This document shows, in pieces, positions 12,073 to 14,851 of a DNA stretch of 33,627 nt. The notes below the pieces were generated by a model. It saw only the letters and a list, made by a program, of their open reading frames with translations. It searched no databases and had not been told where the DNA came from. Numbering within the stretch: the stretch's first letter is position 1; each line of letters begins with the position of its first letter. Source of the stretch: a virus; IMG/VR virus record IMGVR_UViG_3300042868_001146, positions 1 through 33,627 of that record. One strand, written 5' to 3'. The position numbers and the translations under genes are program-made.

Positions 12073-12171
12073 AACCTAGACATCTAAGTTATTAAGAACC
12101 TAAAAAACCTAAAAAGTAGGGGAAAAATTGAGTTAGTCCTGCAAATCTAAAAAAATGGACGAAAAATTGAG
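12073..12171. other. AT-rich region with short repeats, putative replication origin
   Basis: Directly after the replication gene. It contains two copies of GAAAAATTGAG-[TC]-TAG (from 12122 and from 12161, 39 bases apart) and three to four copies of a [CT]CTAAAAA-like element (about 12100-12117 and 12146-12155). AT-rich DNA with iteron-like repeats next to an initiator gene is the usual look of a theta-type origin. No clear DnaA box was seen. Confidence 0.45.
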
Positions 12172-12939
12172 CTAGGTCCCCGCATCGGTAGGGGCAGGGG
12201 CGGGGGGGCGAGGGGTGGCCTCGACCGCTGGGCGCAGATGCGGCGCAAACCATGACAGCCGATGTGGTGGTTCTCTGCGATACTGCTGCCAGTCTGCGAA
12301 TACCTGCATCAGTACACGCTCAAACAATGCCTTGCTGACTCCTGCTGCACACATCGACACACCGGCAGCGCGATCCTCAGCAGTGACAATACGGGGGATG
12401 CCAGCCTTGTTACAGGCAGACTTCCACATCGACAATAGTTCCTCCACACCTAGTTCATCCTCTACCTGCCTCGTTGCCGTTACCGCAACAATGTTAAATG
12501 GTTCCTTGTGTTTATGTAACAATTCATCTGCCTGCATCTGTTGCCATGCTTGCAAGGTAGGTGGCAGGTCTTCGAACTTCACCTTGTCCATGTGGTCTGT
12601 TGTGCTGATGCTGTCGTCATATATGACTCTGAGTATTTGGGCTGTCTTGCCGTAAGTGTGGTTCTTTACCTTCTTTAAGTAACCCATCTCGACAAGCTTC
12701 TTGACCTGCCTGCCTGCTGCCTGCCTTGTGACTCCGAGCATCTTGCCCACGTTCTCATGCCCCGGCCAGCACAGGCCAGCACGGTTAGCGAATGAACAGA
12801 CAGCTAGCAATGCCCGCATGGCCGCCGGTCTTATCCGCCTGTCATTGACTGCTCTGATCGGCACGACCGTATACATCCGCTTATCAACCGGCTTTTCCTT
12901 CGTGATCTTCGGTGGCTCTGGTAGCTCAAAGCTTTGCAT
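12172..12939 (-). CDS. Winged-helix replication initiator-like protein
   Basis: A 255-residue protein. Residues about 37-92 form a winged helix-turn-helix (MRALLAVCSFANRAGLCWPG, then ENVGKMLGVTRQAAGRQVKK and a MGYLKKVKN wing), of the HTH_36 type common in phage and plasmid replication proteins that bind the origin and recruit host helicase. The C-terminal third has an alpha-helical region (VEELLSMWKSACNKAGI) and ends in a Pro/Ala-rich tail. ATG at 12939 has GAGGT 7 bases upstream and overlaps the RHH gene by 14 bases. The role in replication is inferred from family and position; a regulator is the alternative. Confidence 0.7.
   Translation of the reverse strand: MQSFELPEPPKITKEKPVDKRMYTVVPIRAVNDRRIRPAAMRALLAVCSFANRAGLCWPGHENVGKMLGVTRQAAGRQVKKLVEMGYLKKVKNHTYGKTAQILRVIYDDSISTTDHMDKVKFEDLPPTLQAWQQMQADELLHKHKEPFNIVAVTATRQVEDELGVEELLSMWKSACNKAGIPRIVTAEDRAAGVSMCAAGVSKALFERVLMQVFADWQQYRREPPHRLSWFAPHLRPAVEATPRPPAPAPTDAGT
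12191..12215 (+). other. Potential G-quadruplex at the end of the replication gene
   Basis: Four runs of four or more G on the plus strand (12191-12194, 12197-12200, 12202-12208, 12212-12215) separated by loops of 2, 1 and 3 bases fit the intramolecular G4 rule. The tract encodes the Pro/Ala-rich C-terminus of the replication protein on the other strand and adjoins the putative origin. Confidence 0.6.
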
Positions 12940-13138: not shown

Positions 13139-13167
13139 AAATAATTATCTTGTTTTCCTGCCGTCAA
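13139..13167 (-). promoter_or_regulatory. Possible leftward promoter of the regulator
   Basis: TTGACG (13167-13162) and TTATTT (13144-13139), spacer 17, on the minus strand. The -10 is weak. It overlaps the rightward promoter, so the two would compete. The stretch contains ATCGAT and an ATAAT/ATTAT inverted repeat that could be an RHH operator. Confidence 0.4.
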
Positions 13168-13177
13168 GATATATAAT
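13150..13177 (+). promoter_or_regulatory. Rightward sigma70 promoter
   Basis: TTGTTT (13150-13155) and a consensus TATAAT (13172-13177), spacer 16. Transcription would start near 13184, 44 bases before the first small gene. It is the only strong plus-strand promoter seen and probably drives the whole rightward region. Confidence 0.65.
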
Positions 13178-13227
13178 GCCACTCAGCAACACACAATCAA
13201 CGTCTAAACCTGAGAGGACACGACACC

Positions 13228-13368
13228 ATGCAATGCTTCCACTTCTGCTTTTTTGCTGACGATAAAACTCAAGCTGGTGAGTTTTGGGCAGCATCCCGCT
13301 CGCACGTTGAGCAAATGATTCTCAGAGTAAACCCGAAGGCAACAGACATCCACGTCTGGCTTGTTTAA
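13228..13368 (+). CDS. Small protein, 46 residues
   Basis: First rightward gene, likely early. It starts MQCFHFCFFADDKTQAGEFW and ends ATDIHVWLV. No family recognised. The ATG has the repeated AGGACACGACACC ribosome-site cassette. It shows no membrane segment; a compact alpha/beta fold is possible. Position at the start of the early transcript suggests a host-takeover role, which is a guess. Confidence 0.6.
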   Translation: MQCFHFCFFADDKTQAGEFWAASRSHVEQMILRVNPKATDIHVWLV

Positions 13369-13375
13369 TCAACCC

Positions 13376-13391
13376 GCCCGCTTCGGCGGGC
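13376..13391 (+). other. Intergenic hairpin with UUCG tetraloop
   Basis: GCCCGC-TTCG-GCGGGC, a perfect 6-bp stem capped by the very stable UUCG loop, 7 bases after a stop codon and just before the next ribosome-site cassette. There is no T-run, so it is not a normal terminator; it could protect or partition the mRNA. Confidence 0.8.
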
Positions 13392-13414
13392 AGTCAACCC
13401 TAAAAGGAAACGAC

Positions 13415-13579
13415 ATGACATACACCAACAAATTCAACAGCAAGCTCATCGAAACTCACTGGCTTGCCAGTGTCAGCCATCATCACTACTGGTTTGATGA
13501 CTTTCGTGAACTGGTAGCGTTTCAAAGCTCACCCCAGTTCGATACCCGGATGACCATCTCATCACCAGCTACCTATTAA
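13415..13579 (+). CDS. Small protein, 54 residues
   Basis: Starts at ATG 13415 after the repeated ribosome-site cassette; an upstream TTG in the hairpin region is rejected. The product (MTYTNKFNSKLIETHWLASV, later HHHYWFDDFRELVAF) is rich in aromatic and His residues. Not recognised. It may be an early host-interaction peptide, from context only. Confidence 0.6.
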   Translation: MTYTNKFNSKLIETHWLASVSHHHYWFDDFRELVAFQSSPQFDTRMTISSPATY

Positions 13580-13586
13580 TCAATCA

Positions 13587-13604
13587 GCCCCGGCTTGCCG
13601 GGGC
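13587..13604 (+). other. Intergenic hairpin with CUUG tetraloop
   Basis: GCCCCGG-CTTG-CCGGGGC, a perfect 7-bp stem with the stable CUUG loop, 7 bases after a stop codon that is preceded by the same TAATCAA context as the hairpin at 13376. No T-run follows. Both arms differ from the first hairpin while pairing is kept. Confidence 0.8.
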
Positions 13605-13631
13605 AGTCTAAACCTAAAAGGACACGACACC

Positions 13632-13793
13632 ATGAAAATGAAGACCATTCAAGCTTTCTCGCTCATCGCACTGGCAGTAGTTATCCTTATCGGTGCTGTC
13701 ACTGGTGACTTCGATACCGCCGAATTGCTGATGTATACCGCCATCTTCGTAGGCCTGACAGCCGTTCATCTCACCACCGAAGACAATATTTAA
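13632..13793 (+). CDS. Small inner-membrane protein, 53 residues
   Basis: MKMKTIQAFSLIALAVVILI begins a first transmembrane segment (about residues 8-24); a second lies near 34-48 (LMYTAIFVGLTAV). A short polar loop separates them and a hydrophilic tail TTEDNI ends the protein. No family recognised. It has the repeated ribosome-site cassette. Membrane location is predicted from hydrophobicity; function unknown. Confidence 0.62.
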   Translation: MKMKTIQAFSLIALAVVILIGAVTGDFDTAELLMYTAIFVGLTAVHLTTEDNI

Positions 13794-13827
13794 TTATTAA
13801 CTGTCAACCCAGAAAGGAAATGACATC

Positions 13828-14475
13828 ATGCTAAAAATCTCTGTTACTTCAAAACTTGACGGCATCCGATCTTGGTCTTTACAGGCCATTGACACTTGCC
13901 CCGGTTCTGTCGCATCACCCGGTGAACTAGTAGACGCTTGCAAGGGCTGTTACGCCACAACAGGCAATTACCGCTTCAATAACGTCAAGGCACCGCGTCT
14001 GCATAATCAGGAAGACTGGAAGCGTATCGAGTGGGCGGATGATATGTGCCAAGAACTGGAAAAAGATCGCTATTTCCGCTGGTTTGATTCAGGCGATGTC
14101 TACACTCTTGCCCTTGCCGAAAAGATTCTAGAGGTTATGAAGCGTACCCCTTGGTGCCAGCATTGGTTGCCAACCCGTATGTACAAGTTTCCAAAGTTTA
14201 GACAGGTATTCGCTGAAATGCAGGCATTGAAAAATGTATCCGTGCGATTCTCATCTGACAGTGTGACCGGTCAATACACGAAGGGCTTACACGGTTCTGT
14301 GATTATCCCGTCTGCTGCTGATGCAAAGAAGGGCATGACAGTCTGCCAAGCTTACGAACATGAGGGCAAGTGTAACGGGTGCCGTGCCTGCTTTCACAAG
14401 CTTGCCAAGGTCATCGCCTACCCAGCACACGGCAAGACCATGCACAAAGTAATTTCAATCAAACTCGCGGCTTAA
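13828..14475 (+). CDS. GP88-family protein with cysteine clusters
   Basis: A 215-residue protein resembling the phage gene product 88 family. An N-terminal DTCPG and CKGCYATTGNYRF (near 28-52), the central RWFDSGDVYTLALAEKI (near 88-104) and a C-terminal C-x8-CNGCRACF cluster (near 173-187) suggest bound zinc or an iron-sulfur cluster. The family is common in phages and has no established activity. ATG at 13828 carries the ribosome-site cassette. It is the largest gene of the early leftmost part of the rightward transcript. Confidence 0.8.
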   Translation: MLKISVTSKLDGIRSWSLQAIDTCPGSVASPGELVDACKGCYATTGNYRFNNVKAPRLHNQEDWKRIEWADDMCQELEKDRYFRWFDSGDVYTLALAEKILEVMKRTPWCQHWLPTRMYKFPKFRQVFAEMQALKNVSVRFSSDSVTGQYTKGLHGSVIIPSAADAKKGMTVCQAYEHEGKCNGCRACFHKLAKVIAYPAHGKTMHKVISIKLAA

Positions 14476-14777: not shown

Positions 14778-14798
14778 ACCCAGCAGAGTACTACCCAG

Positions 14799-14823
14799 CC
14801 CGGTATCCGTACCGGGTTTTTTT
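14799..14823 (+). terminator. Rho-independent terminator in the rightward region
   Basis: CCCGGTA (14799-14805), loop TCCG, TACCGGG (14810-14816), then seven T. A strong intrinsic terminator 21 bases after the 93-residue gene. No promoter is visible before the next gene at 14852, so the recombination genes may depend on read-through or antitermination. Confidence 0.9.
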
Positions 14824-14851
14824 ACCGCCATATGAACCGAAAGGAACCACC

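Follow-up and report, generated by a model that had tools for sequence, protein, structure and literature searches.

A candidate gene-exchange connector with an apparently non-terminating stem between small early genes of an environmental phage

Hairpins of the CUUCGG type are common in phage intergenic regions, and one of them stabilises the gene 32 mRNA of bacteriophage T4 (Tuerk et al. 1988, as cited in PMC8948821). In cluster K mycobacteriophages, the SAS/ESAS elements consist of a conserved ribosome-site motif before a subset of the non-structural genes, with an inverted repeat just upstream of about half of them; this repeat is imperfect and 17 bp long, and its authors see little support for an RNA hairpin (PMC3203893). 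The promoter early stem-loops (PeSLs) of T4-like phages are presented in the titles of the original reports as composite promoter-terminator motifs (Arbiol 2010; Comeau 2014; both via PMC4503421).

The locus described here lies in a window of 33,627 nucleotides, by which we mean the whole stretch of DNA analysed (IMG/VR record IMGVR_UViG_3300042868_001146). Methylophilales phage MEP301 has a terminase that shares 77% identity with the one encoded here, so the phage of the window is probably near the MEP301-type group and methylotroph-virus-like, and a presumptive host can be named from this relative alone. Three small ORFs of 46, 54 and 53 aa, separated by two junctions (13366-13417 and 13577-13634, plus strand), are apparently the head of an early mini-operon. 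RecE-like exonuclease and RecT-like annealing protein genes are encoded downstream of the mini-operon terminator. Elsewhere in the window, two 38-nt direct repeats that are 74% alike (12099-12175) lie beside the end of an O-like replication gene on the minus strand. The parts of the mini-operon are listed below, where R1 denotes a covariance model trained on eight copies of the joint with 5-bp stems, the window copies being left out.

13150..13177, plus strand: likely sigma70-type promoter of the mini-operon, TTGTTT-16 nt-TATAAT, inferred from aligned leaders and conserved in relatives.
13192..13227, plus strand: leader with the same ribosome-site cassette and without a hairpin (AATCAACGTCTAAACCTGAGAGGACACGACACC), from direct repeats; R1 match at 13190-13230, E 0.003.
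13228..13368, plus strand: gene 1, a variable first-position small ORF of 46 aa; unrelated genes occupy the same place in relatives.
13366..13372, plus strand: TAATCAA, 5' edge of joint 1, containing the gene 1 stop (direct reading).
13373-13375, plus strand: CCC linker of joint 1 (direct reading).
13376..13391, plus strand: hairpin 1, GCCCGC-UUCG-GCGGGC (direct reading, shuffles and folding).
13392..13414, plus strand: AGTC (13392-13395) and ribosome-site cassette of joint 1 (AACCCTAAAAGGAAACGAC), followed by ATG at 13415.
13415..13579, plus strand: gene 2, a small ORF of 54 aa.
13577..13583, plus strand: TAATCAA, 5' edge of joint 2, containing the gene 2 stop (direct reading).
13584-13586, plus strand: TCA linker of joint 2 (direct reading).
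13587..13604, plus strand: hairpin 2, GCCCCGG-CUUG-CCGGGGC (direct reading, shuffles and folding).
13605..13631, plus strand: AGTC (13605-13608) and ribosome-site cassette of joint 2 (TAAACCTAAAAGGACACGACACC), followed by ATG at 13632.
13632..13793, plus strand: gene 3, a small hydrophobic protein of 53 aa (MKMKTIQAFSL...), recurrent in relatives.
13791..13827, plus strand: hairpinless joint variant ahead of the GP88-like gene; R1 match at 13791-13830, E 1e-4; folds weakly.
13828..14475, plus strand: GP88-like protein (PF17338, 215 aa, Pfam E 2.7e-29), anchor gene of the mini-operon.
14797..14824, plus strand: intrinsic terminator of the mini-operon, CCCGGTA-TCCG-TACCGGG then T7, with equivalents in relatives.

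A 93-aa ORF lies between the GP88-like gene and the terminator. Gene 1 has no convincing family match, gene 2 no family match, and gene 3 no Pfam or PHROG match above the cut-off. The GP88-like protein, a PF17338 member of unknown function, anchors a variable operon in many different phages.

The initial annotation reported the same layout at both junctions, and direct reading bears it out: TAATCAA, three nucleotides, a perfect GC stem with a tetraloop, AGTC and the ribosome-site cassette. At both joints the small ORF upstream terminates with the TAA of TAATCAA; the element begins at 13366, and the start first proposed, 13369, clips this stop codon. The stems, described as different, do differ in their distal part and have GCCC...GGGC in common. 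The 33.6 kb of the window contain two all-GC tetraloop stems of 6 bp or more, located exactly at the two junctions, against a mean of 0.18 and a maximum of 2 in 60 dinucleotide shuffles. In RNA folding the two joints reach z-scores of -2.6 and -3.6, whereas neither the leader (13192) nor the junction next to the GP88-like gene (13791) folds better than shuffles. A search of the window against Rfam gave no match above the gathering cut-off. With their conserved ribosome-site motif and inverted repeat 5' of it, the joints recall SAS/ESAS, from which they differ in motif, in the phages concerned and in their short perfect stems with stable loops: the window cassettes read AACCCTAAAAGGAAACGAC and TAAACCTAAAAGGACACGACACC instead of the 13-bp GGGATAGGAGCCC, and perfect 5-7-bp stems with nearly always 4-nt loops stand in place of the imperfect 17-bp repeat with its variable spacer. 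Since both motif and repeat length differ, the joints are not members of SAS/ESAS.

Relatives were drawn from 80 loci with a GP88-like protein and from two pattern scans of IMG/VR. The expectation that related phages would carry further copies was borne out, as many copies of the joint were found, with the stem 7-8 nt past the stop in the homologous ones. The stem of hairpin 1 recurs in L007, L009, L085 and L092; other copies carry GCCCC-UUCG-GGGGC (L005, L006, L016, L087, L098, L100, L104), GGCCC-UUCG-GGGCC (L014, L093, L112) or GCCCC-UUC-GGGGC (L101, L109, L113), and GCCCCGG-CUUG-CCGGGGC is that of hairpin 2. R1 recovers both window joints (E 6e-12 and 3e-11) and matches homologous joints in 17 further loci, eight of these sequences being its training set; its weaker matches are mostly hairpinless cassettes of the same operons. 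Over whole contigs, full joints number one in each of nine related records and two in the window, the records of L004, L011 and L013 hold hairpinless cassettes only, and all matches that could be placed fall within the early operon. Searches of genome_contigs with the joint pattern and with the GP88-like protein retrieved no relative, and hence no prophage or host copy there. AGTC is limited to the window. The homologous hairpin joints detected in other phages all read TGTC, which explains why an exact-pattern AGTC scan gave one chance match alone (L082). The A shared by both window joints (13392 and 13605), where all the others have T, hints at copying of one from the other or at conversion between them, though their stems differ. 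Pattern matches in L088, L090, L091, L094-L097, L099, L103, L105, L106, L111 and L115 were set aside as chance or unrelated. Separately, GC-rich stems with CGGTT-like 5-nt loops occur between early genes of L100 (6677-6700 area), L016 (3514) and L022 (3962), some stems of this type being followed by short T-runs.

The genes on the two sides of the joint vary widely. Upstream ORFs fall into 12 families without detectable mutual similarity, and downstream there are 7 different gene families. All upstream genes end on the TAA of the joint except that of L007, which ends at a TGA directly before it; TAATCAA is still retained there. Between the window and L085, identity is 90% in the promoter-leader, 50% in gene 1, 96% in the joint and 61% in gene 2, the background for random pairs being 59%; phage pairs with different first genes likewise conserve the promoter-leader and the joint, with the genes between them at background. 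L005 and L006 do not share the promoter region, and their leaders are 63-69% identical to the rest; their joints are 80-96% identical to others. Empty sites also exist (L002, L004, L008, L015), in which gene 1 is absent and the leader runs directly into a gene found elsewhere 3' of the joint. Leader and joint cassettes follow a common pattern, GTC-AAMCC-TRAAAGGA-...-GAC, in nearly all distinct cassettes, so that gene 1 is flanked by direct repeats. The initial annotation missed that the element is a whole joint, one that links interchangeable genes and has a homologue in the first gene's hairpinless leader. A hairpin is lacking at the joint of L003 (TAAACCCGTCAACCC), at the second joint of L085 and at the junction before GP88, and the stem is therefore optional or dispensable. 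As an observation apart, the ribosome-site cassette has a potential weak helix of its own, pairing GUC with GAC and CCU with AGG (13393-13413 and 13606-13627 in the window, and in other cassettes), that would partly cover the ribosome site; it is kept in most cassettes, and its pairs hardly vary.

The constancy of the joint between unrelated genes, the empty sites and the homology of leader and joint could also arise if the joint were conserved purely as a homology patch for gene swapping, the hairpin hitch-hiking without an RNA role. The weak covariation of the stems agrees with such an origin. Because MAFFT misaligns stems of unequal length, pair counts were confined to the 5-bp copies, and among the eight distinct ones a both-sided change occurs at one stem pair only, a count not above shuffles (69 of 500 do as well). 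Moreover, in L101, L109 and L113 a one-sided change costs the stem a pair, a loss that only a slipped helix with a 3-nt loop (UUC) would avoid. Together these results make covariation suggestive rather than demonstrated: of the proposed covarying hairpins, what stands is that pairing is kept across stem replacements. Indeed, pairing survives larger distal replacements (GC-UUCG-GC, CGG-CUUG-CCG, C-UUCG-G), albeit in few independent events. UUCG closed by C-G and CUUG closed by G-C are known stable tetraloops, and on the transcribed strand every distinct homologous copy has one or the other, except the L101 type. In L030 the corresponding position is taken by a different stem, capped by GCAA and apparently not homologous. 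A recombination patch without RNA function leaves unexplained these replacements with pairing kept, the correct closing pair of UUCG and CUUG on the transcribed strand only, and the GCAA stem of L030; we regard it as unlikely, even though the hairpinless joints (L003, the second of L085, that before GP88) and the broken pair of the L101-type copies count against an RNA role.

Placement just past a stop codon is where a terminator would be expected, and the real terminators at the operon ends are also GC-rich tetraloop stems, which would suit an attenuator, that is, a leaky or factor-assisted terminator or a pause site that lowers transcription into the next gene. The initial annotation noted that a T-run is lacking, and none follows either window stem (2 T in 10 nt). 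T-runs are equally absent from all homologous copies, with AGTC or TGTC in their place and the conserved WGTCAACC 3' of the stem, in operons that themselves end in a stem followed by T7. Given these true T7 terminators alongside, termination at the joint stems is unlikely, and an attenuator appears decidedly improbable. The view that these are selected elements, not terminators, thus gains support from the copies in relatives, none with a T-run, and from the T7 terminators at the ends of the same operons.

Another phage group (L025 3521, 4059, 4620; L027 6031, 6649, 7219; L121 3189, 3822, 4074) carries repeated cassettes of promoter, stem and ribosome site, in which a strong stem that varies from copy to copy starts 7-9 nt past the -10 and several copies have a palindrome between -35 and -10. 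These have a PeSL-type look and would make a better covariation data set than the joints. By their model, in which TATAAT precedes the stem by 7-9 nt and a ribosome site follows right after it, the stop-overlapping NNTAAT of the joints could be the -10 box of an active or relic promoter, the stem being the 5' end of a new transcript; TTTAAT and ATTAAT do lie 6 nt before the window stems. Yet the first two bases of this hexamer belong to unrelated genes and vary, and the window joints have neither a -35-like match nor a promoter call, so that a promoter is very improbable. The joints resemble the PeSLs, which are short stem-loop regulatory cassettes linked to small early gene shuffling (PMC4503421): shuffled small genes are indeed associated with the joint, with 12 upstream and 7 downstream families, but the one promoter-like feature is a -10-like TAAT that comes through the stop codon. 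Having no recognised promoter and no T-run, hence no terminator, the joints are not PeSL members; the L025, L027 and L121 cassettes fit the promoter and stem-loop part of the published description better.

The stems lie no more than 450 nt into an early transcript whose terminator precedes recE/recT, as might be expected of a site for a phage RNA-binding protein, whether a boxB-like antitermination site or a translational operator. Their loops (UUCG, CUUG) and distal stems vary, unlike those of a protein-recognised hairpin, and the conserved flank yielded no boxA candidate on inspection; we hold this to be the least probable explanation. A translational bypass of the T4 gene 60 type (stop and tetraloop hairpin) was rejected, as the upstream genes end in V, Y, I, K and others and not in a GGA take-off codon, and integron-like attC sites were dismissed since the joint stem is far too short.

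The T4-type intercistronic CUUCGG hairpins are akin to the joints (PMC8948821): both are intergenic stems with a C(UUCG)G closure that need no T-run, and the joint hairpins sit between same-strand ORFs upstream of one terminator. On the transcribed strand, hairpin 1 and almost every copy from relatives carry the C(UUCG)G cap, and hairpin 2 has G(CUUG)C. Unlike the T4 hairpins, the joint stem is embedded in a longer conserved unit with a fixed stop codon, linker and ribosome site. Bacterial REP and other intercistronic mRNA-stabilising hairpins are similar in having a GC-rich intercistronic stem without a T-run. REP elements are longer, conserved in sequence and chromosomal, unlike the joints.

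On balance, we favour the reading that both junctions are copies of a single modular connector, about 50 nt long, that combines a non-terminating RNA stem with a gene exchange site. In order, it comprises the stop TAA, a TCAACCC-like linker, a GC-rich stem with a very stable tetraloop, WGTC, a ribosome-binding cassette and ATG. Homologous exchange within the connector and the similar leader would allow small genes to be inserted, swapped or dropped at the first positions of the operon; that the joint serves as an exchange patch is the most likely interpretation of the sequence pattern, from which recombination itself is read, and the RecE-like and RecT-like proteins of the window phage were considered in its support. 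The hairpin would act in the RNA between cistrons, without terminating transcription, by keeping the ribosome site that follows insulated from the reading frame that precedes it, by shielding the flanking message from nucleases, or both; separation of cistrons through insulated translation and/or slower mRNA decay is most likely from the anatomy of the joint and by analogy with known phage CUUCGG hairpins. An inserted gene and the one next to it would then both be expressed. That the leader of the first gene has no hairpin speaks against 5' stabilisers being needed in general. More tentatively, the joint may be a standardised plug-in in which the incoming gene's stop, a non-terminating insulating stem and the next gene's ribosome site let RecE/RecT-type phages swap accessory genes, which is conceivable although we would not yet lean towards it; if true, accessory and possibly anti-defence genes could be exchanged at the head of the early operon while the genes next to them are expressed as before.

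The locus offers a near-complete view of a hypervariable small-gene slot in an environmental phage lineage, in which turnover affects the genes between a constant promoter-leader and a constant joint. The joint, which appears to differ from known intercistronic hairpins by uniting a fixed stop codon, linker and ribosome site in one exchangeable unit, is a handle for finding accessory early genes, as 12 families came from one 50-nt motif. Close relatives carry this junction with a hairpin, without one or as an empty site, which makes the role of non-terminating CUUCGG hairpins between phage genes testable.
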